Notes under the pieces: generated by a model
Seen by the model: only the letters and a program-made list of their open reading frames with translations
Told to the model about the DNA's origin: nothing
Database searches by the model: none
Translations under genes and position numbers: made by a program
Part shown: positions 3,928 through 30,830 of the stretch, one piece after another
Layout of the letters: every line of letters starts with the position of its first letter
Numbering within the stretch: position 1 is the stretch's first letter
Source of the DNA: SAR116 cluster bacterium AG-335-B03
Lineage (GTDB): Bacteria; Pseudomonadota; Alphaproteobacteria; Puniceispirillales; Marisalimonadaceae
Assembly: GCA_003282435.1 (NCBI GenBank)
Contig: QBZG01000012.1
Coordinates: 1-36,183, forward strand
Length of the DNA: 36,183 nt
Reading direction: 5' to 3'

Positions 3928-3940
3928 ATTTAATTCCGAT

Positions 3941-3975
3941 TTTGATAAGGTAAAACTAAGTTTTACCTTATCAAA
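3941..3975 (-). promoter_or_regulatory. intergenic RNA hairpin between TAXI binding protein and TRAP permease
   Basis: A perfect inverted repeat: the arm TTTGATAAGGTAAAACT at 3941-3957 pairs with its exact complement at 3959-3975, giving about 15-16 base pairs closed by a minimal loop. On the transcribed (minus) strand it comes 8 bases after the binding-protein stop codon and is followed by ATCGGAATTA, not by a U run. It therefore looks more like a 3'-protecting or attenuating stem than a full intrinsic terminator. Such stems are known to allow more binding protein than permease to be made from one operon; that role here is inferred. Confidence 0.7.
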
Positions 3976-3983
3976 TTCATTTT

Positions 3984-11857: not shown

Positions 11858-11875
11858 AATTCTTTTGAGGCAATT

Positions 11876-12250
11876 ATGATTATATTAGACTTACCTGTTC
11901 ATGCAATTGCTCATGCTAGAGCTGGTGATAAAGGAGATGTATCTAATATTTCACTTATTGCTTATTTAGATAGTGGATGGAAGGTAATAAATGATCTTGC
12001 TACTGAAGAAAGAGTATTGGATATTTTTAGTCATTTAGGTGCAACTCAAGTTAAAAGATTTCAACTTCCATCTCTAAAAGCATTAAATTTTGTAATTCAA
12101 AATGCTCTTGGGGGTGGTGTTAATAGTTCCTTAAGACTTGATAGACACGGTAAAACTTTATCTTCACATCTACTTCACGAGCTAATTTTACCTATTAGTG
12201 AAGACATGATACCCTCTAATTCACCATATTTAAAAAATTTTAAGGAATGA
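11876..12250 (+). CDS. AtuA-like C-terminal domain as a separate protein
   Basis: A 124-residue protein with the block VHAIAHARAGDKGDVSNISLIAY and the later LPSLKALNFVIQNALGGGVNSSLRLDRHGKTLS, which matches the ferredoxin-fold-like domain found at the C-terminus of full-length AtuA. It therefore complements the preceding DUF1446 protein, and the two should form one functional unit. GAGG lies 7 bases ahead of the ATG. Its stop is three bases before the ATG of the next gene, whose ribosome site (AAGGA) lies inside this gene's last codons, so the three genes form one operon. Confidence 0.88.
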   Translation: MIILDLPVHAIAHARAGDKGDVSNISLIAYLDSGWKVINDLATEERVLDIFSHLGATQVKRFQLPSLKALNFVIQNALGGGVNSSLRLDRHGKTLSSHLLHELILPISEDMIPSNSPYLKNFKE

Positions 12251-12253
12251 AAA

Positions 12254-15908: not shown

Positions 15909-16565
15909 TTATTGATAAACTCTGCCTTCAGTAACTGTTTGTAAATATTCTATTGATAGATTTTCATTTATTTCAACAATTTTAAAACCTTCTTTAGTAA
16001 TATCTATAACAGCATAATCTGTATAAACTCGGGATACCACTCCTGACCCCGTTAATGGCAATGTGCATTTTTCAACTAGCTTAGGTTTCCCTTCTTTAGT
16101 TAAATGTTGGGTCATTACAAAGACGTTTTTGGCTCCAGCTACTAAATCCATTGCTCCACCAACAGCTGGAATACCTTTGCCGGTGGACCAATTTGCTAAA
16201 TCACCATTCATGGAAACCTCCATAGCTCCGAGCACACAATAATCAATATGCCCACCTCTTATCATGGAAAAACTATCTGCATGGTGACAAAAACTACCAC
16301 CAGGTAAAATTGTAACTGGTTTTTTGCCTGCATTAATTAAATCAAAATCAATTTCATTTTCGTTAGGAGTTGGTCCCATCCCCAAAAGACCATTTTCTGA
16401 ATGATAAATGATTTCACGATCATCTTTGATATGTTGTGAAACTAGTTCTGGCATTCCTATCCCTAAATTTACATATGATGCGTGTGGAAGATCATTTGCT
16501 ATTTTGGAAGCGATAACACCCCTTTCCCATCCCTTTTCTGCATTCGTAAAATTTTTTTTTGTCAT
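15909..16565 (-). CDS. CoA transferase subunit B, 3-oxoadipate/3-oxoacid type (PcaJ-like)
   Basis: A 218-residue beta subunit of a class I CoA transferase. YVNLGIGMPELV and the active-site HSENGLLGMGP with catalytic Glu57 are clear, as are FCHHADSFSMIRGGH, GIPAVGGAMDLVAGA and CTLPLTG. From memory the sequence is closer to PcaJ (3-oxoadipate:succinyl-CoA transferase) than to acetate or glutaconate transferases; the exact acid is not fixed by this. The start ATG overlaps the subunit A stop (ATGA, 4 bases), so the two are translated together to form the heteromer. Its stop lies seven bases from the convergent RraA-like gene. Confidence 0.92.
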   Translation of the reverse strand: MTKKNFTNAEKGWERGVIASKIANDLPHASYVNLGIGMPELVSQHIKDDREIIYHSENGLLGMGPTPNENEIDFDLINAGKKPVTILPGGSFCHHADSFSMIRGGHIDYCVLGAMEVSMNGDLANWSTGKGIPAVGGAMDLVAGAKNVFVMTQHLTKEGKPKLVEKCTLPLTGSGVVSRVYTDYAVIDITKEGFKIVEINENLSIEYLQTVTEGRVYQ

Positions 16566-17275
16566 GGATATATCATTCCCTCCTCAATTGCATTTGTTTC
16601 AATAATAGCATTATCAATTTCAATTATCTTTTTTACAAATATACCTGGGGTTATAACATTTTCTGGATTAGTTTGATCAGGTTCTATAAGTTTTCTTACT
16701 TGAATTAAAGATTGTCTTGCTGCCATACACATTATAGGATTAAAATTTCTTGCAGTTTTTTTAAAAGTCAGATTACCATATCTATCTGATACATCAGCCT
16801 TTATTAGTGCAAAATCTGCATTGAGGGCCTCTTCCAAAATATACTTCTTGCCATTAAAGATTTTTTCTTCTTTTCCAATTGCTAAAGGAGTTCCAACCGC
16901 TGTTGCAGTATAGAATGCAGGTATACCTGATCCCGCAGCTCTAATTCTTTCTGCTAAAGTGCCTTGTGGGACAACTTCTAATTCTATTTCACCCTTGTTG
17001 TATAGTTCTTGAAAAGTTATACCTTTGGGTGATCTAGCAAATGAACAAATTACTTTTTTAACCTGTTTTTGACCAATTAATGCACCAAGGCCAACTCGTC
17101 CATTTCCAGAGTTATTAGCAATAATAGTGAGATCTTTAGCTCCATGATCAATCAAACCGTGAAGAAGTTCTATTGGACTTCCCGCTTCTCCAAAACCTCC
17201 AACCATAATTGTAGCTCCATCAAAAACATCTGATAACATTTCTGCAATTTCTGTTTTTATTTTGTTGATTTGCAT
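16562..17275 (-). CDS. CoA transferase subunit A, 3-oxoadipate/3-oxoacid type (PcaI-like)
   Basis: A 237-residue alpha subunit. The CoA-binding glycine loop VGGFGEAGSP lies at residues 25-34. TIIANNSGNGRVGLGAL, VPQGTLAERIRAAGSGIPAFYT and ADFALIKADVSDRYGNLTFKKTARNFNPIMCMAA follow in the usual order; the 'NN-x-GNG' stretch is typical of PcaI. With subunit B it moves CoA from succinyl-CoA (or a similar donor) to a 3-oxo acid or dicarboxylic acid. First gene of the two-gene unit, divergent from the PimC-like gene; the short spacer presumably carries both promoters. Confidence 0.92.
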   Translation of the reverse strand: MQINKIKTEIAEMLSDVFDGATIMVGGFGEAGSPIELLHGLIDHGAKDLTIIANNSGNGRVGLGALIGQKQVKKVICSFARSPKGITFQELYNKGEIELEVVPQGTLAERIRAAGSGIPAFYTATAVGTPLAIGKEEKIFNGKKYILEEALNADFALIKADVSDRYGNLTFKKTARNFNPIMCMAARQSLIQVRKLIEPDQTNPENVITPGIFVKKIIEIDNAIIETNAIEEGMIYP

Positions 17276-17361
17276 TTTGCGCTTTCATGTTGTTTAAATT
17301 CTTTTAAAATATATAATATAATTTATACACTAAAAATAAATTAAACTGAATGGTAATAAAA

Positions 17362-18558
17362 ATGAATTTTGAATACTCCAAAAAAGATGAAAACTTTCGA
17401 AAAGAAGTGAAAGATTGGCTTGATGAAACCCTACCCAAATCTCTTTCCGAAAAAGTAAAGAAATATCAAAGACTAACGAAAGAGGATTATGAAATATTCA
17501 TGAACAACCTAACTGCTAAAGGTTGGTTAGCATGGCACTGGCCTAAAAAACATGGGGGAACAGGTTGGAACGCAATTGAAAAACATATTTTTGAAGAAGA
17601 AATAATTAAGGCTTCTGCTCCCAGGATTGTACCTTTTGGAGTTAATATGCTAGGTCCAGTATTGATAGAATTTGGAACTGAAGAACAAAAAAATTATTAT
17701 CTTCCTAGAATTTTAAGTAATGAGGATTGGTGGGCACAAGGTTACTCTGAACCAGGTGCTGGTTCGGATCTAGCTAGTTTAAAAACAACAGCAGTAGATA
17801 AAGGTGATCACTATCTAGTTAATGGCCAAAAAACTTGGACTACTCTTGGTCATCATGCAGATAAAATATTTTGCTTAGTTAAAACAGATTTAAATGCAAA
17901 ACCGCAACTTGGAATTTCTTTTTTATTGATTGATATGGATACTCCTGGGGTCGAAGTAAAACCAATAATCACCTTAGATGGTGAACATGAAGTGAATGAA
18001 GTATGGTTTACAAATGTAAAAGTTCCCAAAAAAAATATTGTAGGAAAAGAAAATGAAGGATGGACTTATGCAAAATATTTATTAACTTTTGAGCGAACTG
18101 GTATCGCTGGTGTCCCTTATTCAAAATCAGCATTAAATCACTTAAAAATGATATCTAAAAGATCTTTAAAAAATGGCAAACCCTTAATTGAAGATCCTAT
18201 TTTCTCTTCTGAGATTGCTGAACTAGAAATAGATTTATTAGCTATGGAAATTTTCAATTTAAGGACAGTAAGTGCTGCCGCAGAAGGAAAAGCTCCTGGG
18301 ATGGAAAGCTCATTACTTAAAATCAAAGGGACGCTTGTAAGACAAAAAACAACCGAGTTACTCAGAAAAGCACTAGGTCCACAAGCGCTTCCTTATTTAC
18401 CAGAGCAATTTGATGAAGGATGGAATGAGATGCCAGTTGGACCTAGTTATGCTGGCCCAATAGCAAAACAATACTTTAATATGCGGAAGATATCTATATA
18501 TGGCGGATCTAACGAGATCCAAAAAAATATAGTAGCAAAAGCATCATTTGGCTTATAG
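17362..18558 (+). CDS. acyl-CoA dehydrogenase, pimeloyl-CoA dehydrogenase large-subunit (PimC) type
   Basis: A 398-residue FAD enzyme: N-terminal helical domain, GYSEPGAGSDLASLKT and VNGQKTWTTLGHHAD (FAD and substrate contacts, about 127-166), and the C-terminal helical domain ending SIYGGSNEIQKNIVAK. The usual catalytic Glu before that motif is replaced (YGG for YEG), but Glu244 in FERTGIAG lies at the alternative base position used by isovaleryl-CoA dehydrogenase, so it should be active. Sequence and order (large then small subunit, eight bases apart) match PimC/PimD and other heteromeric ACADs acting on dicarboxyl- or steroid-side-chain-CoA. I chose ATG 362 bases after 17000 over the one at 17350 because GGTAA precedes it. 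Confidence 0.9.
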   Translation: MNFEYSKKDENFRKEVKDWLDETLPKSLSEKVKKYQRLTKEDYEIFMNNLTAKGWLAWHWPKKHGGTGWNAIEKHIFEEEIIKASAPRIVPFGVNMLGPVLIEFGTEEQKNYYLPRILSNEDWWAQGYSEPGAGSDLASLKTTAVDKGDHYLVNGQKTWTTLGHHADKIFCLVKTDLNAKPQLGISFLLIDMDTPGVEVKPIITLDGEHEVNEVWFTNVKVPKKNIVGKENEGWTYAKYLLTFERTGIAGVPYSKSALNHLKMISKRSLKNGKPLIEDPIFSSEIAELEIDLLAMEIFNLRTVSAAAEGKAPGMESSLLKIKGTLVRQKTTELLRKALGPQALPYLPEQFDEGWNEMPVGPSYAGPIAKQYFNMRKISIYGGSNEIQKNIVAKASFGL

Positions 18559-18566
18559 GAACAAAT

Positions 18567-19685
18567 ATGGATTTTACATTATCTGAAGAAAGAAAAATGC
18601 TTCAGGAGACTGTTGGAAAGTTTTTTAATAGTAATTATAAAAATATAGATAAAAGAAGCGAAAATGTAAATTTACCTGAAGGTTATTCAAAAGAATTTTG
18701 GAAAGAAAGTTCAGATTTAGGAGTAATTAGTGCTTTAGTATCTCCAAAGTTTGGTGGATTAGGTGGAAGTGGAGAAGACATTTCAATTATATTTGAACTT
18801 GTAGGAAAATCACTATGTGTAGAGCCTTTTTTGTCATCAGCTGTGTTATCTAGTACTGTATTATCTTCAATATCAAATCCAAGAAATGATTTAATTACTG
18901 ACATAATAGAAGGAAATTTATTAATATCATTTGCTCATTGTGAAATGAATAATAGGTATGAAGATCATTACATTGAGACTAATGCTTATTTAAAAAATGA
19001 TGAATGGAATATTAATGGAACTAAATCATTTGTCATGAATGGAGATGATGCTAGCAAAATCATTGTTTCAGCAAGAATAAATGGTGATGTAAATGACAGG
19101 GATGGAATAGGACTATTTTTGGTTGATAATGACCAAACTTTAAAAAGACCTTATAATACAATAGATGGTTATAGGTCGACAGAGCTAACTTTTAAAGATT
19201 TAAAAGGTGAATTACTTGCAAAAGATGAAAATGCTCTAAAATGCATTATCAAAGCTAATTCTGCAGGTGCCCTAGCTTTGTCAGCAGAAGCTTTAGGTAT
19301 TATGCAAATTTGTTTTGATTTAACACTTGATTATTTGAAGACAAGAAAACAATTTGGTAAATCTATTGGAGCTTTTCAAAGTATTCAACATAGGATGGTT
19401 GATATGATGCTTGAGATAGAACAAGTGAAATCAGCAGTAATGTTAGCTTCATCCACTTTTGAGACAGATGATTTAACAAGAGATAAAAATATTTCAGCAG
19501 CAAAAAATTTGGTTGGTAGAGTTGGTAAATTAATTGCTGAAGAAACAATTCAATTACATGGGGGAATTGCAATGACTTGGGAGTATTCTGCAGCACATTA
19601 TGCAAAAAGACTTATAATGATAGATCATTTAATGGGTGATAGCGATTATCACAGAGATAGATTTAAACTTTTAAGCAACTTTTAA
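18567..19685 (+). CDS. acyl-CoA dehydrogenase, small-subunit (PimD) type, probably non-catalytic
   Basis: A 372-residue ACAD-fold protein starting MDFTLSEERKMLQETV, with LDYLKTRKQFGKSIGAFQSIQHRMVDM and TIQLHGGIAMTWEYSAAHYAKRL in the C-terminal domain. The usual end motif (Y-E-G-T-x-E-I-Q) is replaced by MIDHLMGDSDYH. No Glu stands at the alternative position either (KANSAGALALSAE). Both catalytic-base sites are therefore empty, as expected of the second subunit in heteromeric ACADs such as PimD. It follows the large-subunit gene by eight bases with GGA ahead of its ATG. Its stop overlaps the stop of the convergent thioesterase gene by four bases. Confidence 0.9.
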   Translation: MDFTLSEERKMLQETVGKFFNSNYKNIDKRSENVNLPEGYSKEFWKESSDLGVISALVSPKFGGLGGSGEDISIIFELVGKSLCVEPFLSSAVLSSTVLSSISNPRNDLITDIIEGNLLISFAHCEMNNRYEDHYIETNAYLKNDEWNINGTKSFVMNGDDASKIIVSARINGDVNDRDGIGLFLVDNDQTLKRPYNTIDGYRSTELTFKDLKGELLAKDENALKCIIKANSAGALALSAEALGIMQICFDLTLDYLKTRKQFGKSIGAFQSIQHRMVDMMLEIEQVKSAVMLASSTFETDDLTRDKNISAAKNLVGRVGKLIAEETIQLHGGIAMTWEYSAAHYAKRLIMIDHLMGDSDYHRDRFKLLSNF

Positions 19686-20938
19686 TTATTAACTAACAAA
19701 ATAGATGCCTTACTTCTAAAATCTTTTGGAACTTCAATAGATTTTCTCTTTTTTAAGTCAAATAAAACTGCGACTATTTCAATATCCATCAAAATATCAC
19801 CTGAGGCATCATCAACCATGTGATGGATGAATTTAAGGGATTTATTACCAATTTTAGTAAAATTAGTATGCATGGTAACAGCCATACCAAGAGGTGCTTT
19901 TTTAAAATATCTAACTGAATAATCGAGAGCGGCTGAACCAATACTATATTCAGTCCTCCAATTGTAATCTGCCCCACAATAAGTAAATAAATGAGTTGCC
20001 GCATCAGAGACGCACCCAATTTTAAACTGACTGGAACCCACTAATTCATAATCTAAATCCCAAGTATTTACGGCTTTTTTACACGATATGAAAGCTTTTT
20101 TAGATGGTTTATTTGAAGGTCTCTTGTCAGATAGTGGACGTAAATCTTTAAATTGTGGTTCGTTGAGATAAGTAAAGCTTTTAATAGAAAAAATTTCATT
20201 TATTATTTTTTTTATTTTTTCATCAATTTTAAATGAAATATTAGTTTCAAAATATGCTGATACATTTTGGTTATCAATACAGTAAATTTTAGTGAGTAAA
20301 ATTATTTTATCATCATCAATATTTTTTATAGTAAAAATAAATTCTAAGGCATTCCCAAGGTTTACTTCTTTACTAAAAATACATCTTTCATTAACAATTT
20401 GAAAAATTAAATTATCTGAAGTTTTACTTGAAATTTTATTGAAAAGAATTTTAATAGCATCATTGTGTTTTCCAAAGTAATATTGAACGTTCATGTGAGA
20501 CATTTGATCACAATCATTTTTTCTAACTAATCCTTTAAAAGCTGAAAAAATATCTTTTTCAATTACTGGTTTATTTTTCGAAATACTATCTAAATTTATA
20601 TCATTTACTCGATCTTTTTTAACCATCATTAATTGATCTTTTGAATCATTGTTTAAGTTGGTGAGATGCAATTTATGAATAATTTGAATATCATCTTTTT
20701 GTTGTATTAAATCTGTTAAAATGTAAATAGTTTGAAATTCTTGATAACTAAAAACAAGATTATCTATTTCTAATTTCTCATCAAAATTGAAATCTATTTT
20801 CTTATTTAATAATGAAGAAGTAAAACCTGTTGCCTCTTCAAAAAACTTATATATAGAAGATACTTTAAGTTGGTTGCTATTGTCCAAATCAAACTTTTTG
20901 ATAAGCCCCTTAAAAGTTTCTAAATTATTTATATGCAT
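19682..20938 (-). CDS. triple-hotdog acyl-CoA thioesterase-like protein
   Basis: A 418-residue protein made of three hotdog-like units, about 9-115, 134-255 and 285-410. The second carries the thioesterase hallmark NDCDQMSHMNVQYYFGKHNDA (from 141) and the third has GSAALDYSVRYFKKAPLGMAV with HHMVDDASGDILMDIE. Units 2 and 3 match the two-hotdog thioesterases common in Alphaproteobacteria. Unit 1 looks like a duplicate of unit 2: FKGLIKKFDLDN (9-20) against FKGLVRKNDCDQ (134-145), each followed by a similar hotdog helix. Unit 1 lacks the HMN motif and may be structural. Last gene of the kinase-ACAD-thioesterase operon, 25 bases after the ACAD. Acyl specificity unknown. Confidence 0.8.
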   Translation of the reverse strand: MHINNLETFKGLIKKFDLDNSNQLKVSSIYKFFEEATGFTSSLLNKKIDFNFDEKLEIDNLVFSYQEFQTIYILTDLIQQKDDIQIIHKLHLTNLNNDSKDQLMMVKKDRVNDINLDSISKNKPVIEKDIFSAFKGLVRKNDCDQMSHMNVQYYFGKHNDAIKILFNKISSKTSDNLIFQIVNERCIFSKEVNLGNALEFIFTIKNIDDDKIILLTKIYCIDNQNVSAYFETNISFKIDEKIKKIINEIFSIKSFTYLNEPQFKDLRPLSDKRPSNKPSKKAFISCKKAVNTWDLDYELVGSSQFKIGCVSDAATHLFTYCGADYNWRTEYSIGSAALDYSVRYFKKAPLGMAVTMHTNFTKIGNKSLKFIHHMVDDASGDILMDIEIVAVLFDLKKRKSIEVPKDFRSKASILLVNN

Positions 20939-20963
20939 AGAGTTAATAATATTAGGAATAATC

Positions 20964-22166
20964 CTAATTTCTATCTCTCAACTCTAATTTTGCAACGCTC
21001 ATATTATGAACCTCGTCTGGACCATCAGCCAACCTTAAAGCCCGAGCATAACCATATGCATAAGATAATGGAAAATCTGATGTTACACCACCGCCTCCAT
21101 GAATCTGTATTGCTCTATCAATCACTCTTGTGGCCATATTAGGTGCTACAACTTTAATCATTGAAATTTCTTTTCTTGCAATTTTATTTCCAACGGTATC
21201 CATCATATGAGCGGTCTTTAATACTAACAATCTAGCTTGTTCAATCTCAGCTCTACTTTCTGCTATTGCCTCCATAATAACACCCTGTTGGGCAATAGGT
21301 TTACCAAAAGCAACCCTAGACTTTGCTCGTGAAATCATTAATTCTAATGCTCTCTCGGCTTGACCAATTAATCTCATACAATGATGAATCCTACCTGGTC
21401 CCAGACGACCTTGAGCTATTTCAAACCCTCTTCCTTCACCTAGAAGAATATTGGAGGCGGGAACTTTTACGTCTTTAAACTCTACCTCAGCATGTCCATG
21501 TGGTGCATGATCATAACCAAACACAGGCAAATGCCTTAAAACTTTAACACCAGGGGTATTAAAAGGAACAAGTATCATAGACTGCTGTTTATACTTATCT
21601 GCACTAGGATCTGTTTTACCCATAAAAATCATAATCTTACACCTCGGATCCATCGCACCTGAGGTCCACCACTTCTTGGCATTAATTACATAGTGATCTC
21701 CATTCTTGACAATGCTAGCTTGAATATTAGAAGCATCTGAAGACGCTACATCTGGCTCGGTCATCGCGAAAGAAGATCTGATTTCTCCACTTAATAAAGG
21801 AGTTAGCCAATCTTTTTTCTGTTCTTCAGTACCATATCTTACCAAAACCTCCATATTTCCAGTATCTGGGGCAGAACAATTAAAAATTTCGGCACCTATT
21901 GGAGATCTTCCCATTATTTCACAAAGAGGAGCATATTCAGTATTAGTAAGACCTGCACCTAAATTACTTTCAGGAAGAAATAAGTTCCACAAACCCTCAG
22001 ATTTTGCTTTAGCTTTTAATGTTTCCATTATTTCTGGTATGCACCATCTTCCACCCTTCTCCACTTGATTTTTATAAACATCTTCATTTTCATAAACGTT
22101 TTCGTTCATAAAATTTGTAACTTTTTCTTGAAGATCTTTTACTTTTTGAGAATATTCGAAATCCAT
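20964..22166 (-). CDS. acyl-CoA dehydrogenase, ACAD10/ACAD11 type
   Basis: A 400-residue ACAD very like the dehydrogenase half of mammalian ACAD11: [75 protein letters not shown] and [10 protein letters not shown] are all present. The catalytic Glu position of the medium-chain enzyme (Y-E-G) is Asp381 here (A-D-G), as in that subfamily. It follows the phosphotransferase gene by nine bases, so the two proteins of this operon equal the two halves of the ACAD10/11 fusion. Family knowledge then suggests action on 4-phosphoacyl-CoA made by the kinase, rather than plain fatty acyl-CoA (inference). Confidence 0.92.
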
Positions 22167-22175
22167 TTTTTTCCT

Positions 22176-23243
22176 CTAAGTTAAATTAAAAACATTATTT
22201 GCCCTATTTATAAGAGCATCGATTCTAGTTCCAAAATTTGCAAACCTTTTATCTTTTGTTTGTCCTTTTTGAAACCTATAAAATATTTGTTGTAATATAA
22301 CAGCTAACTTAAATGCACCAAAAGCATAATACCAGCTAATATTTTGTAAATTAAAACCAGTTTTTTGTGAGTAATAATCTATCATTTCAGTTCTAGTAGG
22401 ATAATAAATTTTATCTGTTGGCATTGAAGTAATATTTTTGCATTCTTCATAATCATTTTTATCAATCCAATAATTTAGCATATGTCCCACATCCATAAGA
22501 GGGTCACCTCTTGTACACATATCCCAATCAAACAACGCAACAGGTGTAATTTCTTCAGAGTTACTCCACATAATATTATCTAATTTAAAATCATTATGTA
22601 AAATAGTAGTCGCTTGTGGCTCAGGTAAATTTAATCTCAAATAGTTTATTAATTTGTCAAACTTAAGTTTAAGAATTTTGTTGTCAGTTGATTTTTTCCA
22701 TCTAACTTCCCATCCATCAAGTTGTCTTTTCACAAAGCCTTCAGGTCTTCCTAAATTTCCTAAACCCACGAGCTCTGGGTTAATTTTATGAAGCTCTGCC
22801 AAAACATCAATAATGCGAAAGCTCAATTTTCTTACATTTTCCTTAGTTTGTTTTATAAAAGGTTCCATTTTCTTTCTAATAACAAAGCCATTTCTTCTTT
22901 CAATAATATGAAAAGTCGAGCCAATTACGCTTTCATCACCGCAAAAATATAAACTTTTTGGTGCTAAAGAGAACATAGTATTGATTTTAGATTGAACAGT
23001 GTGCTCTCTAAACATGTCATGTGACGAAGGTGCTATTGGGCCTAAAGGTGGTCTTCTAAGTACATATTCTGTCTCATCTACTTTTAAAAGATAGGTTAAA
23101 TTTGCATGCCCTCCTGAAAATTGGAGAATTTCAATATTTTTAAATTGCATATTTAAAGTATCTTTTAAATATGAGCTCAAATTATTTAAATCAAGTTGCT
23201 CATCTTGTCTAATTTCAATTAATTCTTGGTCCATTAAATTCAT
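22176..23243 (-). CDS. phosphotransferase (APH family), ACAD10/11 N-terminal or LvaA-like acyl-CoA kinase
   Basis: A 355-residue APH-fold kinase. YVLRRPPLGP (60-69) is the ATP-side strand typical of the ACAD11 kinase domain. The catalytic loop is HNDFKLDN (216-223: Asp218 base, Asn223 metal), and the second metal motif is FDWDMCTRGDP (Asp239/Asp241). All key kinase residues are intact. In mammals the equivalent domain is fused to the ACAD and phosphorylates the hydroxyl of 4-hydroxyacyl-CoA; in Pseudomonas LvaA does this for 4-hydroxyvaleryl-CoA. An antibiotic resistance role is unlikely given the acyl-CoA neighbours. First gene of the operon; an alternative ATG lies at 23234. Confidence 0.9.
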   Translation of the reverse strand: MNLMDQELIEIRQDEQLDLNNLSSYLKDTLNMQFKNIEILQFSGGHANLTYLLKVDETEYVLRRPPLGPIAPSSHDMFREHTVQSKINTMFSLAPKSLYFCGDESVIGSTFHIIERRNGFVIRKKMEPFIKQTKENVRKLSFRIIDVLAELHKINPELVGLGNLGRPEGFVKRQLDGWEVRWKKSTDNKILKLKFDKLINYLRLNLPEPQATTILHNDFKLDNIMWSNSEEITPVALFDWDMCTRGDPLMDVGHMLNYWIDKNDYEECKNITSMPTDKIYYPTRTEMIDYYSQKTGFNLQNISWYYAFGAFKLAVILQQIFYRFQKGQTKDKRFANFGTRIDALINRANNVFNLT

Positions 23244-23359
23244 ATCAAGTTACCATTAATATTTTAATTTAAAATTATTTTGGTTATATTTTATAACTAT
23301 TTATTATGTTAAATAAAAGTATAATAAGTAAAAGATTATAATTAAATTCAAGGAAAAGT

Positions 23360-24142
23360 ATGAAAAATTTATTTGATTTAGATGGAAAAGCAGCGCTTGT
23401 TACAGGAGGGTCAAGAGGCATAGGAGCTATGATTGCTGAAGGGTTTGTTAGGAATAACGTTAAAACATATATAACATCTAGAAAAGCTGAAGCTTGCGAC
23501 TTTAAAGCGAAAGAACTTTCAGAATTTGGGGAATGTATTTCGGTCCCTGCTGACTTAACTGATATGAATGAAATGGATAAATTAGTCTCTCGAATAAAAG
23601 ACAAAGAAGAAAAACTTAATATTCTTGTAAATAATGCAGGTGCTGCGTGGGGTGCGTCTTTTGATGATTTTCCTGAAAATGGTTGGGATAAAGTAATGGA
23701 TACAAATGTAAAATCAGTGTTTTTCTTAACTCAAAAATTTGCTGATATTTTAGAGAAATCCGCTAGTAATACTGATCCATCAAGAATAATAAATGTAGGT
23801 TCGATAGATGGAATAGGCATCCCAAGAGCAGAGACATATTCCTACCCTGCTTCAAAAGCTGCTGTTCATCAACTTACTAGAGTTCTAGCAAATAGGTTAG
23901 CTAAAAGAAATATTAATGTTAATGCAATAGCCCCTGGTCCTTTTCAAAGTAATATGATGGCCCATACGCTTCGGGAGCATGGAGAAGAGATTAAGTCATC
24001 TGTACCAAGAGGTAGGATTGGTATCCCAGAAGATATGGCAGGAGTTTCAATTTTTTTGTCTTCGAAAGCCAGCTCTTATATTACCGGATCTATAATACCA
24101 GTGGATGGCGGTTCTCTTATAGCAAGAAGACACATGGAATGA
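23360..24142 (+). CDS. SDR family oxidoreductase (RhlG / 3-oxoacyl reductase-like)
   Basis: A 260-residue classical SDR: TGGSRGIG (15-22), TSRKAE after strand 2 (NADP-type), NNAG (91-94), Ser148 in INVGSIDGI, YPASK (Tyr162, Lys166), and IAPGPFQSNM plus SSYITGSIIPVDGG near the end. It looks like gluconate-5-dehydrogenase/RhlG-type members that reduce or oxidise 3-oxo/3-hydroxyacyl groups. Divergent from the kinase gene (116-base spacer containing TATAAT at 23320, not significant alone). AAGGA precedes the ATG. In a 4-hydroxyacyl route it could interconvert 3-hydroxy and 3-oxoacyl-CoA, or reduce a 4-oxo acid (inference). Confidence 0.9.
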   Translation: MKNLFDLDGKAALVTGGSRGIGAMIAEGFVRNNVKTYITSRKAEACDFKAKELSEFGECISVPADLTDMNEMDKLVSRIKDKEEKLNILVNNAGAAWGASFDDFPENGWDKVMDTNVKSVFFLTQKFADILEKSASNTDPSRIINVGSIDGIGIPRAETYSYPASKAAVHQLTRVLANRLAKRNINVNAIAPGPFQSNMMAHTLREHGEEIKSSVPRGRIGIPEDMAGVSIFLSSKASSYITGSIIPVDGGSLIARRHME

Positions 24143-24181
24143 AAAATTACTAAAATAATTAAGTTAATTTTAGCTAATTTT
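24143..24181. terminator. weak possible bidirectional terminator
   Basis: AAAATTACTAAAAT (24143-24156) can pair with ATTTTAGCTAATTTT (24167-24181), one base bulged, around a 10-base loop. It sits between the converging SDR and acyl-CoA ligase genes and overlaps the end of the latter. The stem is almost all A-T and therefore weak; only its position between two stop codons supports a terminator role. Confidence 0.3.
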
Positions 24182-25804
24182 ATGACCTCCAAATTGGTCT
24201 CTTAATTTATTTTTAAGAATTTTTCCTGTAGCTCCTAAAGGAATTAAATCAGTAAAAAGAACATCATCAGGTATCATCCATTTTGCTATCTTACCTTCAT
24301 ACATGTCTAGAATGTCGTCTTTCGAAGGTGATTTGCCTGGCATGGGTTGCACTATAACTATTGGTCTTTCTTCCCATTTTTCGTGAGGCACTGAAATTAC
24401 TGCAGCATTAGCTACTTCCGGATGACCAACACAAATATTTTCCAAATCTATGGAACTTATCCATTCTCCACCAGATTTAATTATATCTTTTGTTCTATCC
24501 GTTATGGTCATGAAACCATCTGCATCTATCTTAGCAACATCGCCCGTATCAAACCAACCTCCATCAAGAAATCTATCTTTTTCTGTAGTATCATTATAAT
24601 ATTCCTTAAGAACCCAGAAGCCTCTTGAAAGTAACCTACCCTGAGTTTCTCCATCTTCAGGTAAATCGTTACCTTCATCATCAACTAATTTCATTTGGTG
24701 ACCAAAAATAGTTCTACCTTGTGCAATTTTTTGATCATAATATTCAGTTCTATTTTTTGGCTCTTCCGCAAGTGCAGGCATATTTACAGTACCTAATGGG
24801 CTCATTTCTGTCATACCCCATGCATGTATCACCTCAGCTCCGAACTCATCTTCAAAACCTTCAAATAATGTCCTTGGACAGGAAGATCCTCCTATGACTA
24901 ACCTTTTAACTGTATCTATTCTTTTGCCAGATTCTCTTAAGTGGTTTAATAATAAAAGCCAGATAGTCGGCACTCCAAGAGAAATTGTAACCTTTTCTGC
25001 ATTCATGAGATCTGTTATGTTTTCACCATCTAACTTAGCACCAGGAAAAACAATTTTAGTCCCACACATTGGTGCCGCATAAGGGGTACCCCAAGCATTT
25101 ACGTGAAACATTGGAACAACAGGCATTACCACATCTTTAGCACCATAAGGGACGACATCTTTTAAATTCATGCCATATGCATGAAGAACAGTTGACCTAT
25201 GTGAATAAAGCACGCCTTTTGGATTGCCAGTAGTTCCAGAAGTGTAACATAATGATGAAGCTGTTTTTTCATCAAATTGTGGCCAGACAAATTTATCAGA
25301 TTGATCTTTTATAAACTCTTCATAACATATAACTTTTATACCATCTTTAATATAGGGTTTAACCATATTTTTTTCGTCAGTCATAATAACTAAAGCTTCA
25401 ACAGTTTTAAAATTTTTTGATGCTTTCTCTATTAATGGTAAAATGTTCAAGTCAACGCATAGGACTTTATCTTCGGCATGATTTACAATATAAGATACTT
25501 GGTCAGGGTGCAATCTAGGATTAAGTGTATGGCATATAAGGCCGCTACAAGAAGTTGCATAATATATTTCTAAATGTCTATAGCCATTCCACGCTAAAGT
25601 TCCAACCTTATCACCCCACTTTAAATTTAATGATTTAAAAGCATTAGCTAATTTTTTAGTTCTCTTTCCCCAACTTGAATAATTGTATTTATGAATTCCA
25701 CCTTCAACTGTATTAGAAACAATTTCTTGTTTTCCATAATTTTTAATTGCATGTTCAAAAATGCTTGAAACTAGCAAAGGATGGTCCTGCATTAATCCTA
25801 ACAT
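24170..25804 (-). CDS. AMP-forming acyl-CoA synthetase (DmdB/fatty-acyl-CoA ligase type)
   Basis: A 544-residue adenylate-forming ligase: [19 protein letters not shown] (ATP loop), [41 protein letters not shown] (ribose-binding Asp) and the C-terminal [11 protein letters not shown] with the catalytic Lys. The N-terminal [20 protein letters not shown] resembles the group that includes DmdB, the 3-(methylthio)propionyl-CoA ligase, and medium/long-chain ligases of Alphaproteobacteria. A true DMSP route is not supported, because no ~600-residue DmdC-like dehydrogenase is here. AGGAG precedes the ATG. It follows the other ligase by 55 bases on the same strand, convergent with the SDR. Confidence 0.92.
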
Positions 25805-25859: not shown

Positions 25860-27425
25860 CTAAAATTTATCTTCCATTTTATCAATTAACAAAGTTTTTA
25901 AAATCTTGCCATTTTTATTCTTTGGCAACTCCGAATCTAAAAATGTCCAGTAATCAGGTTGTTTGTATTCAGAAAGATTTATTGAACAAAGTTTTTGTAA
26001 TTTTTTTAAATTTTTACTTTGGTTGTCTGAATAAATGATAACATGTATTTTTTCTCCTAAAATCGAATCCATATGAGGTATCACAGCAACTTCTAAAACT
26101 AAACCAGTCAAACTTATTAAATTTTCTATTTCAGTAGAATAGATTTTGTAACCTCCCCTATTTATTACATCTTTTTTTCTATCTAAAATATATATATATC
26201 CATTTTTATCTTTGTACCCAATATCACCAGACCTCCAATATCCGTTAACGAATTCTTCTGATGTTTTTTTTTTATTTTTCCAATAACCTGGGATGACCAT
26301 AGGTCCAAAAATCCACAACTCTCCTGTTTCTTCAATTGAAACTTCTTCATTATTATCATTCATAATTATTATTTTGCCTGTTTCCACTACTTTCCCAACA
26401 CTTGCTATAAGATTATTTTTATATTTGAGAGGCATTAATGTAGCAGGTGAACATGTCTCGGTAGATCCATATGCATTTACAAGTGAAAGATTAGGTAATA
26501 AAGATTTTAATTTTTTTATTGTGCCCAATGGCATAGATGCCCCGCCAAAGCATCCAATTCTCCAATTTGATAAATCATATTTACTTAAATCGTCTCTAAT
26601 TAAACATAAATTATACATGGCAGGAACCATTATTAAGTATGTTAAGTATTCTTTTTCTGCCAGATATAGAAATTCTTTAACGTCAAAGTTTTTCATTAAG
26701 ATCAGTGTTCCACCAGAAAAAAACATTGTCATAATATGAGCTACTAAGCCAGTTACATGACTGGCGGGCACCACTAAAATACTGTTGTCTTTATCTGATA
26801 AACTGAAATGTCTTTGAAAATGAAGACAAGAGTGAATTATGTTTATATTTGTGATAACTGCACCTTTTGGATTTCCAGTAGTACCAGATGTATATAAAAT
26901 AAAAGCAGGATCTTCTTCGTCAACAACATAAAAAGATTTCTTATTTTCAGTTATATTTTTTTTTAAACTCTTTTCGTCAAAATTTAGAAAGTACTTAACT
27001 GAAGTTATTTTTTGTTTTTCAGGTATGTTTATATTTAATAATATGTCAAAAAAAATACTATTAGGGGTACAATCATTAATAATAGTTTCATTTTCAACAA
27101 TAGAAGATTTTGGGTTTAAAGGTACAATAATTATTCCATCTTTTAAGCCTGCAAGAATATATATCAGTAAGGGCCAAGAGTTTTCAAATAAAACACAAAC
27201 TCTATCACCTTTTTTTATTCCTAGCTGGATAAAATGACAGGATTGATTAATAGCCAAATTATAAATTTCTTCATAAGAAATCCTTACACCGTTATCTATA
27301 ACAGCTATATTAGCAGGATTTTTTTTTACATTCTTTTCAAATGCATGCCAAAAGTTTGTATCTCTTTTAACGAATGTAGAGACTAACCTATCCCGAAAAT
27401 GAACCTCTTTGGAAACTTCTCGCAT
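25860..27425 (-). CDS. AMP-forming acyl-CoA synthetase / class I adenylate-forming ligase
   Basis: A 521-residue ligase of the ANL superfamily, distinct from its neighbour. It has [16 protein letters not shown] (ATP loop), VPASHVTGLVAHIMT, GGASMPLGTIKKL, VNAYGSTETCSPATL, GYWRSGDIGYKDKNGYIYILDR and PKNKNGKILKTLL (catalytic Lys near the C-terminus). It activates a carboxylic acid to acyl-CoA through acyl-AMP; the substrate is open. It begins 29 bases after LivF on the same strand and so is probably the sixth gene of the uptake operon, which suggests it activates what the transporter imports. AGGAAGG lies about 12 bases before the ATG. Confidence 0.9.
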   Translation of the reverse strand: MREVSKEVHFRDRLVSTFVKRDTNFWHAFEKNVKKNPANIAVIDNGVRISYEEIYNLAINQSCHFIQLGIKKGDRVCVLFENSWPLLIYILAGLKDGIIIVPLNPKSSIVENETIINDCTPNSIFFDILLNINIPEKQKITSVKYFLNFDEKSLKKNITENKKSFYVVDEEDPAFILYTSGTTGNPKGAVITNINIIHSCLHFQRHFSLSDKDNSILVVPASHVTGLVAHIMTMFFSGGTLILMKNFDVKEFLYLAEKEYLTYLIMVPAMYNLCLIRDDLSKYDLSNWRIGCFGGASMPLGTIKKLKSLLPNLSLVNAYGSTETCSPATLMPLKYKNNLIASVGKVVETGKIIIMNDNNEEVSIEETGELWIFGPMVIPGYWKNKKKTSEEFVNGYWRSGDIGYKDKNGYIYILDRKKDVINRGGYKIYSTEIENLISLTGLVLEVAVIPHMDSILGEKIHVIIYSDNQSKNLKKLQKLCSINLSEYKQPDYWTFLDSELPKNKNGKILKTLLIDKMEDKF

Positions 27426-27454: not shown

Positions 27455-28096
27455 TTAATTTACGTTTTCTCCTCTTTCAATTAGAAATTTTTTATCAAAA
27501 ATATCCTCTGTGTGATTTTGTTCTGACTGACTTAGTATAATCGACATATTTTGTTTTTTTAAACCTTTTATCACCTCACTTAATCTCTGACTTAAAGCTG
27601 GTGCCACCCCTTCAAAAGGCTCATCAAGTAAAAGTAGTTGAGTTCCAGACACTAAGGCTCTTCCTAAAGCAGCCATTTTTTGTTGCCCTCCAGATAATAG
27701 CAAAGCTTTTCTTTCTGACATTTCTTTTAGCTCCGGCATTATTTGATAGACTAAAGTAAGTCTATTATTACTATCTAAACTTTTAATTGACCAAGATGGT
27801 AATAATATATTTTCTTCAACAGTCAATTCTGGTATCAAACCTCTATCTTCCGGCATATACCCTATTCCTAAAGCTGCTCTTTCGTGGCTTGCTGAATTAT
27901 TCAAATCTAGATCGTTAAATTTAATTGTACCATTTGCTAATTTGTTTACACCCATAATTGATTTCAACAGTGTGGTTTTACCAGCGCCATTTCTACCAAT
28001 TAACGAAATCATTTCACCTTTTTTAATATCTAAAGTAAAATTTTTTAAAGCTAGAATAGCACCAATTTTGACACTTACGCTATTAACAGTTAACAT
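27455..28096 (-). CDS. livF: branched-chain amino acid-type ABC transporter ATPase (LivF)
   Basis: A 213-residue ATPase: Walker A GRNGAGKTT (34-42), GIGYMPEDRGLIPELTVEENILLPSW (Q-loop region typical of LivF), signature LLSGGQQKMAALGRAL, and Walker B LLLLDEPFEGVAP. It is somewhat shorter than usual LivF (about 235 residues) and its tail, SQSEQNHTEDIFDKKFLIERGENVN, deviates from the common VEQN...LERG form but keeps the LIERGE end. It powers the transporter with LivG. Start overlaps the LivG stop by one base (TAATG). The real substrate may be a carboxylic acid or amide rather than an amino acid. Confidence 0.92.
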   Translation of the reverse strand: MLTVNSVSVKIGAILALKNFTLDIKKGEMISLIGRNGAGKTTLLKSIMGVNKLANGTIKFNDLDLNNSASHERAALGIGYMPEDRGLIPELTVEENILLPSWSIKSLDSNNRLTLVYQIMPELKEMSERKALLLSGGQQKMAALGRALVSGTQLLLLDEPFEGVAPALSQRLSEVIKGLKKQNMSIILSQSEQNHTEDIFDKKFLIERGENVN

Positions 28097-28863
28097 TATG
28101 ATTTTGCCTTGACTTCAGTTTTTCCTGTTACATATTTTTTAACGTTACTATCGTTTAAAACTGTATTTCCATTTCCATCAGCAATCACCGCACCTTGATA
28201 AAAAGCTATAATTCTATCTGAATAATTTTGAACTATATCCATATCATGTTCCACAAAAATGACAGTTAATCCCTGACCGGACAGAGCTTTTGCAATAGTA
28301 TCCATTAATGGATATTTTTCTTCTGCCCCTACTCCACTAGTTGGTTCATCCAACAATAAAATATCGGGTTTTCTTACTAATGCCATAGCTATGTCAAGAA
28401 GTTTTCTAACTCCACCAGGTAATTCACTTACTTGCCTGTGTGCAAATTCGTTTAATGCAAATCTATTTAGTATTTCATCAATGAAATCGCCATTTTCTTT
28501 CGATCTTGCATTTTTGAAATAAGAGTGTTTTTTTTGGGAGGTACCCAACGCAATAAGTAGATTTTCCCAAGCTGTCATAGGTTCAAAAATTTGGGGTATT
28601 TGAAATGATCTACTAATACCCTTTTGAGTAATTATTCTCGGATCAAGTTGAGTAATTTCTTCATTTTTTAAGTATATATGTCCGGTGTCTGGTTTAAGAT
28701 ATCCTGTAACCATGTTCATAAAGGTTGTTTTTCCAGCTCCATTTGATCCAATTAGTGAAACCTTTTCTCCTTTATCAATATTTATATTGATATTATTGGC
28801 TGCAACTACAGCTCCAAAAGATTTATTAACATTTTCCGCTCTTAAAAGACTTTGTTTAGACAT
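28096..28863 (-). CDS. livG: branched-chain amino acid-type ABC transporter ATPase (LivG)
   Basis: A 255-residue ATPase: Walker A GSNGAGKTT (39-47), the LivG-type segment ITQKGISRSFQIPQIFEPMTAWENLLIAL, signature ELPGGVRKLLDIAMAL, Walker B DILLLDEPTSGVGAEE and switch His in VIFVEHDMD. The signature reads LPGG instead of the common LSYG or LSGG. It forms the ATPase pair with LivF at the inner membrane. It lies 21 bases downstream of LivM and overlaps LivF by one base, in the usual H-M-G-F order. Confidence 0.93.
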   Translation of the reverse strand: MSKQSLLRAENVNKSFGAVVAANNININIDKGEKVSLIGSNGAGKTTFMNMVTGYLKPDTGHIYLKNEEITQLDPRIITQKGISRSFQIPQIFEPMTAWENLLIALGTSQKKHSYFKNARSKENGDFIDEILNRFALNEFAHRQVSELPGGVRKLLDIAMALVRKPDILLLDEPTSGVGAEEKYPLMDTIAKALSGQGLTVIFVEHDMDIVQNYSDRIIAFYQGAVIADGNGNTVLNDSNVKKYVTGKTEVKAKS

Positions 28864-28884
28864 TTAGAAACTCTATAACTCTAT

Positions 28885-29844
28885 TTATTTACTTTTTTTT
28901 AATCTATCAAAAAATTGTTTGAAAAAGGATCCAATTCCTGAAGGAATAAAAATAATACTTAATATCAGAAACAACCCTAAAATTAACTGCCACGTATCAG
29001 GGAAATATCTTCCTGAAAAAGATCTGACTAATTCTAATAACAACGCTGCCAAAAATACTGCCGGAACACTTAAATATCCCGCAAGTATTGATATGAATAC
29101 AAATTCACCAGAGGTAGTCCAATATGTAAATTCAGGGTCTATATGTCCTAACGCAATTCCATTAAGAGCTCCACCCATACCACCTAATCCTGCTGCAATT
29201 GTAAAATTTAATACTGCTACATTAAAAGCTGAAGACCCGAGATATTCCACTCGCAGTTCATTCTCTCTAACAGCTAAGGCAATTAATCCAGGAGTCGAAT
29301 CATAATAATACCTGAGCAAAATTGATATAAATCCTGTCATTATTATAGCAACCACGTACAATACATAATCAGCATATTCTGATGAAGGTTTAATTCCAAA
29401 ATAAGTAGACTCAGGAAGTACAAAACCGTCAGAACCACCAATTGCATCAATTTTTATTAAAATTCCGTATAGGACCATAGAAAAAGCAAGTGATAGCATG
29501 GCAAAAAATATATCTCGATATCTAGCAAGAAGTGGAGCTATTATTAAGCCAACCAAGCCTGTAAATAAAAAACTTACAAATAACAATAACATTGCATCAG
29601 TTAGACCGGCTTGTGTACCAAGAAGTCCAGCGGTATAACCACCAATTCCAAAAACAAAACCTTGGCCAAAAGATACCAATCCACCTCTCATAAGAGTAAT
29701 TATTCCCAGACCAACAAGACCATAAGCAATAGCTTTTGTAATAACAAAGACAAGCCAGTTTGGAATTAATAGTCCAACGAGAATTAAAAATGACATTAAA
29801 AAAATACTTTGAAACAATAAGTTATTATAAAGTTTTTCTGACAT
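28885..29844 (-). CDS. livM: branched-chain amino acid-type ABC permease (LivM)
   Basis: A 319-residue permease with about nine membrane segments. GLGIITLMRGGLVSFGQGFVFGIGGYTAGLL (about 41-72) is the family's N-terminal signature, and VRENELRVEYLGSSAFNVAVLNFTIAAGLGGMGGAL (about 197-232) is the EAA-like loop that contacts the ATPases. The C-terminus ends FKQFFDRLKKSK. It forms the membrane channel with LivH. Start overlaps the LivH stop by one base (TAATG), indicating tight coupling. Confidence 0.94.
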   Translation of the reverse strand: MSEKLYNNLLFQSIFLMSFLILVGLLIPNWLVFVITKAIAYGLVGLGIITLMRGGLVSFGQGFVFGIGGYTAGLLGTQAGLTDAMLLLFVSFLFTGLVGLIIAPLLARYRDIFFAMLSLAFSMVLYGILIKIDAIGGSDGFVLPESTYFGIKPSSEYADYVLYVVAIIMTGFISILLRYYYDSTPGLIALAVRENELRVEYLGSSAFNVAVLNFTIAAGLGGMGGALNGIALGHIDPEFTYWTTSGEFVFISILAGYLSVPAVFLAALLLELVRSFSGRYFPDTWQLILGLFLILSIIFIPSGIGSFFKQFFDRLKKSK

Positions 29845-30743
29845 TATATTTTCCTAGCTTGAGCACCTTGAAACAAACCCTTGGGTTTAAAAATTAACAT
29901 CCCTGCCATACAAAAATACATTATAAAAATTTCAGCCTCTGGAAGTTTATGAACACATGCTGCTCTTGCCATTCCAATTATCAAAGCACCAATAACAGCT
30001 CCTGGAATGCTACCTAGCCCTCCAATTATCACTACTGCAAAACTTTCAATTACAACCGCAACACTAATGCCAACCTGAACTGAAATTAATGGAGCAGTAA
30101 AAGATCCGGCCAATGCGGCTAAAAATGCTCCAATAAAAAAGGCTGCTAAGTAAACTTTATTTATATTTACTCCCATACAACCACTTATTTCCGGATTATG
30201 AATGACTGCCAGTACTATTTTACCTGACTGAGTTTTATTAAGTACAAACCATAGAAAAAGGCCACAAAAAATAGCTAATCCGATAAGAGCTAAATCATAA
30301 CCGACATAATATAAAGATCCAAACTCTAAGGCTCCAAGAAGTTCTCTTGGTTCTGAAACATATAAGGAGTTCATTCCCCAAATTAATTTTTGAACATCTT
30401 CTAAAACAAGATAAATAGCATAAGTCACAAGAACGATTAAAACTTCATCTTGACCATAAAATCTTCTTAAAATTCCTCTTTCCATTATTGGAGTAATAAC
30501 TATAGCCACTGCTAATGCTGAAACTAGCATCGCTAAAATAACTAATTGTTCTGGCATTCCCAATGAATAAAAAATAGGTACTAGTGTAGCAGTTGAGTAG
30601 GCTCCTAGTGCATATATTCCACCGTGAGCAATGTTAAGTATTTTAAGGACACCAAAAACAAAAGTTAAACCAAGGGCTACAATAAATAACCATGATGCAT
30701 AAATCGCACCGTCTAAAACTATAGTTAAAATTTCATCAACCAA
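29844..30743 (-). CDS. livH: branched-chain amino acid-type ABC permease (LivH)
   Basis: A 299-residue permease: ALGLTFVFGVLKILNIAHGGIYALGAY (about 22-49) is the LivH signature, the ATPase-contact loop is VIHNPEISGCMGVNINKVYLAAFFIGAFLAALAG, and VVIIGGLGSIPGAVIGALIIG precedes the last helices. About eight membrane segments. The start is TTG at 30743 with AAAGAG upstream; no in-frame ATG lies nearby, so a weak start is used. It follows the binding-protein gene after an 87-base spacer containing a hairpin. Confidence 0.93.
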   Translation of the reverse strand: MVDEILTIVLDGAIYASWLFIVALGLTFVFGVLKILNIAHGGIYALGAYSTATLVPIFYSLGMPEQLVILAMLVSALAVAIVITPIMERGILRRFYGQDEVLIVLVTYAIYLVLEDVQKLIWGMNSLYVSEPRELLGALEFGSLYYVGYDLALIGLAIFCGLFLWFVLNKTQSGKIVLAVIHNPEISGCMGVNINKVYLAAFFIGAFLAALAGSFTAPLISVQVGISVAVVIESFAVVIIGGLGSIPGAVIGALIIGMARAACVHKLPEAEIFIMYFCMAGMLIFKPKGLFQGAQARKI

Positions 30744-30782
30744 TTTTTATCTCTTTAAGTGAATTTATTAGTAATAAATAAA

Positions 30783-30810
30783 GCCAAGACAAATGATTTT
30801 ATGTCTTGGC
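30783..30810 (-). terminator. hairpin after the Liv-type binding-protein gene (leaky terminator or stabiliser)
   Basis: GCCAAGACA (30783-30791) pairs perfectly with TGTCTTGGC (30802-30810) around a 10-base loop. On the transcribed minus strand it lies about 20 bases after the binding-protein stop and is followed by TTTATTTATT, a broken U tract. This is consistent with partial termination that leaves abundant binding-protein mRNA and less permease/ATPase mRNA. The G-C content of the stem stands out from the AT-rich surroundings. Confidence 0.65.
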
Positions 30811-30830
30811 CATATTATTTTTATTTTAAA

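Follow-up and report, generated by a model that had tools for sequence, protein, structure and literature searches.

Organization of the kinase-dehydrogenase locus

The stretch of DNA analysed here (the window; 36,183 bp) is contig 12 of the 1.45 Mb, 66% complete genome of SAR116 cluster bacterium AG-335-B03 (G000; G-numbers denote genomes compared, L-numbers loci fetched from other records). It contains a putative locus for phosphorylation-dependent breakdown of 4-hydroxyacyl-CoA, with genes for an APH-fold kinase, an acyl-CoA dehydrogenase (ACAD) and a thioesterase-like protein, a divergent gene for a short-chain dehydrogenase/reductase (SDR) and, next along, an acyl-CoA ligase gene (Table 1). 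Genes were called from open reading frames (ORFs), and families were assigned by Pfam and NCBIfam profile searches. The ACAD gene was located 9 bases (22167-22175) downstream of the kinase gene, and the thioesterase-like ORF 25 bases further. Pfam matches were obtained to APH for the kinase (E 1.6e-35), Acyl-CoA_dh N/M/C for the ACAD, 4HBT_2 for the thioesterase-like protein (E 4.5e-23), adh_short for the SDR and AMP-binding for the ligase. ORF coordinates and Pfam matches agree with the arrangement of these five genes given in an initial annotation of the sequence. The kinase, described there as intact, was found to have complete catalytic residues (E80, D218, N223 and D239). The conserved block is larger than had been noted, since a CoA-transferase pair and a second ACAD pair (15909-19685) belong to it as well.

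The ACAD showed very high similarity to human ACAD11 (PDB 2wbi; phmmer E 1.1e-137) and to 4hr3 (E 9.1e-138). According to the available text of PMC12440821, R626, H634 and R637 of mouse ACAD11 bind phosphate and are absent from ordinary ACADs, R631 is general and D753 is the catalytic base. In the alignment all five were kept, R626, R631, H634, R637 and D753 corresponding to R254, R259, H262, R265 and D381 of the window ACAD. In a tree of 49 ACADs (quick short search, without bootstrap) the window ACAD was placed inside a 37-row set together with human ACAD11 and 4hr3 (Shimodaira-Hasegawa-like approximate likelihood ratio test, SH-aLRT, 99). Rows with a strict GPGR motif lay on one side of one branch, which has low support (64), and a check of the alignment columns showed that seven further rows, not in that group, keep the five residues. 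A regular-expression screen requiring GPGR misses these seven; residue counts were taken from the column check. Membership of the window ACAD in the ACAD10/11 class is supported at sequence level by the residues and the tree, and elimination of phosphate from 4-phosphoacyl-CoA, as predicted for this enzyme, is the best explanation of its features.

Besides the catalytic residues, the kinase contains R173, which aligns with R176 of ACAD11, a residue modelled near the CoA moiety (available text of PMC12440821). Its nearest solved relative by sequence was PDB 9o56, deposited as an aminoglycoside phosphotransferase (phmmer E 1.7e-84, versus 2.7e-38 for the ACAD11 kinase domain). A quick tree divided 59 kinases into two deep clades (support 100). 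The ACAD11 domain, 3dxp and a second kinase of the source genome fall in one of them, 9o56 and the window kinase in the other. The ACAD10/11-type reading proposed initially for both proteins was supported at sequence level for the ACAD and has to be qualified for the kinase, which falls in the 9o56-type clade. Among the rows compared, neither protein grouped with any family known to have an unrelated function. Members near ACADs with the five ACAD11 residues were found in both kinase clades, including those from Deinococcus and Bacillota, and in both there are also kinases for which the fetched region shows no ACAD of this kind. Loci with 9o56-type kinase, histidine phosphatase, ACAD and SDR genes occur too, e.g., in Azospirillum. 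The available text of PMC6692424 lists genes of the same four kinds in the levulinate cluster of Pseudomonas citronellolis, and this match in gene content suggests that LvaA may belong to the 9o56-type clade.

Conservation of a nine-gene block in one SAR116 family

A core of nine genes was found to be common to one SAR116 family: the CoA-transferase pair, the PimC/PimD-like ACAD pair, the thioesterase-like gene, the ACAD, the kinase, the SDR and the ligase. Gene order was the same across 20 regions fetched from relatives, chosen out of 43 genomes with the thioesterase-like gene, and the ACAD pair, thioesterase-like gene, ACAD11-type ACAD, kinase and SDR were present in every region. CoAT_A was found as two overlapping pieces in one region and cut by a contig end in another, and the single region without CoAT_B was also cut by a contig end. 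Both regions without LIG1 run up to a contig end or to no more than 1.3 kb from one, and 1.0-2.6 kb separated SDR and ligase in five of the 20. LIG2 and the ABC transporter genes were variable, some of the regions without them being shortened by contig ends, and transport is therefore not to be counted as part of the system.

An order-wide survey covered 136 genomes, 58 of them from this family (ACAD threshold E 1e-100 or better). The thioesterase-like gene was detected in 43 genomes, every one within the family, and the ACAD in 44, of which 41 belong to the family; no match to the thioesterase-like gene was obtained in the three ACAD carriers outside it. In all 41 family genomes with the ACAD, the kinase, ACAD and thioesterase-like genes were adjacent, on one strand and in a fixed order, with distances between matches of 11-30 and 27-48 bp. 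As identities ranged down to 57% (kinase), 78% (ACAD) and 40% (thioesterase-like), such conserved adjacency shows that the arrangement is not due to chance. One of the 41 is G049, in which the thioesterase-like gene is in two pieces and cut by a contig end. The other two genomes with this gene, G020 and G023, have only its last part (contig end in the matching loci L158 and L154), and in G021 the kinase was found but not the ACAD and thioesterase-like genes. At a mean completeness of 73%, a universal locus is predicted in 42.5 of the 58 family genomes; it was observed in 41. Six family genomes have a completeness of 90% or more, and the locus was present in five of these; its absence from the sixth, G045 (90%), means that it may have been lost in some members.

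Among the 43 closest named loci (L117-L159), kinase, ACAD and thioesterase-like genes lay in a row in 40, and the other three start partway through the last gene, where the contig ends. In a class survey of 385 genomes, 38 besides the source genome matched the thioesterase-like family profile at 1e-10; the best of these matches spans residues 119-414 only, and most cover the last hotdog alone. All seven core genes tested (the CoA-transferase pair was left out) were under purifying selection, with whole-gene ratios of non-synonymous to synonymous substitution rates (dN/dS) of 0.02-0.22.

The source genome carries a second module on contig 1 (L038), whose kinase belongs to the ACAD11-type clade. 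ACAD10 consists of HAD, kinase and ACAD domains (available texts of PMC12440821 and PMC11342911), and since the same three occur together here, the second module looks like a split ACAD10 set. The HAD gene was also found (71% identity) in L291, the only further locus with this module that was retrieved from the genus. With two modules in the genome, substrates may be divided between them.

Near the conserved block and outside it, at 10496-13918, genes for AtuA, an AtuA-ferredoxin-like protein and a thiamine-diphosphate enzyme follow one another. A TRAP transporter of the fused-permease/TAXI type at 1948-5132 is unrelated to the kinase-ACAD locus. With both subunits above their cut-offs, the CoA-transferase is, by profile score, of the true 3-oxoacid type.

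Table 1. Genes of the locus, its variable neighbours and the second module (positions refer to the window unless L038 is given; regions are the 20 fetched from relatives).
Feature	Position	Strand	Description and basis
CoAT_B	15909-16565	-	3-oxoacid CoA-transferase subunit B; TIGR02428 289.3 bits, cut-off 243.55; 19/20 regions
CoAT_A	16562-17275	-	3-oxoacid CoA-transferase subunit A; TIGR02429 323.6 bits, cut-off 128.5; 20/20 regions
ACAD_A	17350-18558	+	PimC-like acyl-CoA dehydrogenase subunit; 442.9 bits, under equivalog cut-off; 20/20 regions
ACAD_B	18567-19685	+	PimD-like acyl-CoA dehydrogenase subunit; 270.8 bits, under equivalog cut-off; convergent with thioesterase-like gene, 4-base overlap; 20/20 regions
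Thioesterase-like	19682-20938	-	Triple-hotdog thioesterase-like protein, 418 aa; domains about 1-125, 126-275, 276-418; 4HBT_2, AlphaFold2 model
ACAD	20964-22166	-	ACAD11-class acyl-CoA dehydrogenase, predicted 4-phosphoacyl-CoA phosphate-eliminating, 400 aa; phmmer, residues, tree
KIN	22176-23243	-	APH-fold kinase, predicted 4-hydroxyacyl-CoA kinase (9o56-type clade), 355 aa; Pfam APH, phmmer, residues, tree
SDR	23360-24142	+	SDR oxidoreductase, candidate for 4-keto/4-hydroxy acyl-CoA interconversion, 260 aa; adh_short; 20/20 regions
LIG1	24170-25804	-	Acyl-CoA ligase, 544 aa; closest NCBIfam model is that of 3-(methylthio)propionyl-CoA ligase, with 780.1 bits, short of the cut-off of 822; 18/20 regions
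LIG2	25860-27425	-	Second acyl-CoA ligase, variable neighbour, not core; AMP-binding; 8/20 regions
ABC transporter	27455-32132	-	Liv-type transporter genes and binding protein (Peripla_BP_6), variable neighbour, not core; ATPase/permease genes named by reading ORFs, without family search; 5/20 regions
MaoC	33241-33699		Variable neighbour
HAD gene, second module	L038 7018-7683	+	HAD family
ACAD, second module	L038 7686-8894	-	Five ACAD11 residues kept; 35% identity to window ACAD
SDR, second module	L038 8902-9636	-	
Kinase, second module	L038 9707-10747	+	ACAD11-type clade

The thioesterase-like protein and hydrolases of related modules

An AlphaFold2 model of the thioesterase-like protein, made from an alignment of 27 sequences, contained three hotdog units (predicted local distance difference test, pLDDT, 89.3; predicted template modelling score, pTM, 0.91). 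Residues 125-393 of the model align with FatA-type acyl-acyl carrier protein (ACP) thioesterases (Z about 22, root-mean-square deviation about 3 A over about 240 residues), and domain 1 predicted alone (pLDDT 82.8) matched hotdog thioesterases with moderate Z scores of up to 10.4. The triple-hotdog assignment rests on these models; comparing the three domains with one another by profile in hhalign gave nothing significant (best P 0.024). A sequence search of the PDB gave no match better than E 0.01. No chain aligned over all three domains was found among the 50 matches listed in the structure searches, which carries no weight. The protein is similar to the FatA/FatB-type acyl-ACP thioesterases, which are double hotdogs, in the aligned part of the predicted model; it differs from them in sequence (8-13% identity), in having an extra hotdog in front and in the position of its conserved Asp motif, which lies in the earlier of the two domains that align. 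A triple hotdog has been described for the fungal fatty acid synthase dehydratase (available text of PMC4491049).

Residues D144, H148 and N150 of domain 2 were invariant in 11 SAR116 rows and in every row of two wider alignments including distant relatives. By analogy with the family, the Asp of this domain is presumably catalytic, and the catalytic motif of the SAR116 proteins is confined to domain 2, being found neither in domain 1 nor in domain 3. Domain 1 evolves fast: its dN/dS was 0.26-0.65, versus 0.03-0.09 for domain 3 and 0.02-0.05 for the ACAD, in six comparisons, the two distant ones being rough estimates with a dS of more than 1. In Sneathiella and Burkholderiales, distant relatives were found as chains of about 300 residues, and in Burkholderiales a single hotdog apparently lies upstream in another frame; the N-terminal extensions of the Burkholderiales relatives looked like out-of-frame reading and were left out of the later alignment. 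In-frame three-hotdog chains like that of SAR116 were found in Ferrovibrio (L172, L171) and in an alphaproteobacterial metagenome-assembled genome (L168), all with a first domain that keeps the motif CDQYGHMNVQ. The Ferrovibrio fusions differ from the SAR116 protein in this motif and in that no kinase was found in their loci at E 1e-15. Since the distant relatives are either chains of about 300 residues or motif-keeping triples, the SAR116 protein appears to be a single hotdog fused to a double one, with the motif lost from the first unit. The surroundings of thioesterase-like relatives from Burkholderiales and Sneathiella in L160-L195 were rich in ACAD and SDR genes, and no kinase was found near distant relatives in L160-L195 at E 1e-15. 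A link to carnitine was rejected: the NCBIfam carnitine 3-dehydrogenase match (30.2 bits, cut-off 592) is confined to the hotdog part.

Hydrolase genes beside related modules were sought with eight sample hydrolases (E 1e-4) in 50 loci (the window, L038 and L244-L291). A histidine phosphatase was found in the region of 18 loci, three of which had supplied queries. Within a 15-row subclade of 9o56-type kinases, it was present in 13 of the 14 loci with an ACAD11-class ACAD (L248, L249, L250, L255, L259, L260, L262-L267 and L269). Thioesterases were found in five regions: the window, Cytobacillus, in which the gene adjoins the kinase, L286, and L258 and L261 with weak matches (22-26% identity). 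In L286, from a proteobacterium of another class, a single-hotdog thioesterase gene lies 24 bp from the ACAD gene in a cluster of an ACAD pair, MaoC, SurE-type phosphatase, kinase, SDR, ACAD11-class ACAD (65%), thioesterase, SDR and ligases. Histidine phosphatase and thioesterase occurred together in none of the 50 loci, while the phosphatase accompanying the thioesterase in L286 is of the SurE type. The sampled hydrolases were absent from 13 loci with a kinase and a five-residue ACAD (e.g., L244, L268, L272, L273, L276-L279 and L281). As the sample is small and partly circular, a neighbouring hydrolase is to be regarded as a tendency and not a rule. The thioesterase in third position had initially been considered new to this layout. 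The Cytobacillus and L286 modules show that thioesterases beside such modules are not new in themselves, and it is the triple hotdog that is unusual. No paper linking a thioesterase with ACAD11-type genes was seen, by title or opening of the abstract, among the matches listed, and no description of the nine-gene SAR116 block, the operon-bound triple hotdog or the phosphatase-or-thioesterase tendency was found in the literature searched.

Proposed pathway and alternatives

Like mammalian ACAD10 and ACAD11, the SAR116 locus combines a kinase with an ACAD carrying the R-x4-R-x2-H-C-M-R residues and the catalytic Asp. It differs from them in encoding the two as separate ORFs and not as one polypeptide, in the clade of its kinase and in the absence of a HAD gene among the genes identified. 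With the lva levulinate clusters, including that of P. citronellolis, it shares by gene content the split kinase and ACAD with SDR and acyl-CoA ligase genes nearby (available text of PMC6692424). Unlike in those clusters, a histidine phosphatase was not found in the hydrolase scan and LvaB was not recognised at the locus, the family of LvaB not being established; the P. citronellolis cluster, the second lva-like cluster published, also lacks LvaB according to the same text. Compared with both systems, the triple-hotdog, ACAD pair and CoA-transferase genes are additional. The chemistry and the split kinase/ACAD arrangement are already known, and the nine-gene block and the operon-bound triple hotdog are new details.

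DUF6285 (PF19802) was considered as a possible LvaB and dropped as a candidate: a kinase lay beside DUF6285 in 21 of 21 loci (L037 and L292-L311; 19 distinct places), and these kinases are close to neither clade of the tree (tblastn, at most 97 bits). The ACAD end beside it resembled an ACAD without the five residues in ten loci and the second-module ACAD in seven, and none was found in four. DUF6285 had no match in the source genome (66% complete), and it matched in 1 of 41 genomes of one survey and 18 of 199 of another; because its identification with LvaB is doubtful, its absence is not used as evidence.

We estimate at about 75% the probability that the locus encodes a catabolic route by way of phosphorylation of a 4-hydroxyacyl-CoA followed by flavin-dependent elimination of the phosphate. 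The starting acid would carry a C4 hydroxyl or be reduced to carry one, and LIG1/LIG2 or the CoA-transferase would form the acyl-CoA, while the SDR may interconvert 4-keto and 4-hydroxy groups. The kinase would move phosphate from ATP onto the 4-hydroxyl. In the ACAD, Asp381 would then take the alpha proton while Arg254, His262 and Arg265 hold the phosphate, which would be expelled and the hydride given back, so that a 2-enoyl-CoA could enter beta-oxidation with no need for an external electron acceptor. Bacterial relatives of the kinase and of the ACAD were each able to take the place of the corresponding ACAD10 domain (available text of PMC11342911). Several points weigh against the proposal. 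The window kinase does not share a clade with the ACAD11 kinase domain, and 9o56-type kinases are also found without an ACAD11-class gene in the fetched region (e.g., L251-L254 and L256). The lva genes include neither the ACAD pair nor the CoA-transferase, and no hydratase or thiolase was found by Pfam and NCBIfam among the nine core genes. The kinase, ACAD, SDR and ligase belong to the same broad families as LvaA, LvaC, LvaD and LvaE and are putative orthologues of them, and gamma-hydroxy or gamma-keto acids are candidate substrates.

As the ACAD pair and the CoA-transferase go beyond the lva set, a substrate of greater complexity than a plain 4-hydroxy fatty acid is possible. It is possible, at well under even odds, that the same phosphorylation and elimination act on a hydroxylated branched or cyclic acyl-CoA (e.g., from a terpenoid- or sterol-derived acid) and not on levulinate or straight-chain 4-hydroxy fatty acids, with the ACAD pair and CoA-transferase acting before or after. 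ACAD_A and ACAD_B adjoin the module in 20 of the 20 fetched regions, such a pair also occurs in the kinase-ACAD11 regions of L286 and of the alphaproteobacterial loci L276 and L277, and AtuA and AtuA-ferredoxin genes are present at 10496-12250. The AtuA genes, however, lie outside the conserved core, in which no terpene- or steroid-specific gene was identified, and the PimC/PimD matches are under the equivalog cut-offs; a plain 4-hydroxy or 4-keto acid seems the likelier substrate. That the ACAD is an ordinary electron-transferring dehydrogenase and the kinase an unrelated small-molecule kinase, its neighbour only, is very improbable. APH-family kinases act on many substrates, which counts for this explanation together with the 9o56-type kinases just mentioned, but the ACAD retains all five active-site residues, and the adjacency in 41 of 41 family genomes is repeated elsewhere.

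Hydrolysis of a CoA thioester of the pathway is the most likely role of the triple-hotdog protein and is favoured by the invariant motif of domain 2; the protein would act on a dead-end or accumulating acyl-CoA and so free CoA. The decay of the first domain, which lacks the catalytic motif and evolves fast, favours instead a structural role, as does the place of the gene, third in the kinase-ACAD operon in 41 of 41 genomes: the protein might be a non-catalytic partner or regulator, for example a tether that keeps kinase and ACAD together as a fusion would. This is rather unlikely, given that D144, H148 and N150 are invariant even in distant relatives and that thioesterases of other types adjoin related modules.

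Returning to hydrolysis of a pathway thioester, a broader and quite speculative idea, which we consider unlikely as it stands, is that kinase-ACAD modules depend on a hydrolase to clear away stalled 4-phosphoacyl-CoA (e.g., the wrong enantiomer). The hydrolase would be a histidine phosphatase in many 9o56-type modules and a purpose-built triple-hotdog thioesterase in SAR116, with its decayed, fast-evolving domain 1 shaping substrate choice or docking on the kinase or ACAD. The strict gene order and the recurring phosphatase or thioesterase neighbours make it testable whether the pathway depends on a partner hydrolase, a step that the current pathway scheme lacks. These results make phosphorylation-dependent 4-hydroxy acid breakdown, known from mammals and Pseudomonas, a predicted near-universal trait of one seawater SAR116 family, and suggest that these bacteria draw carbon from 4-hydroxy, 4-keto or lactone-forming acids.

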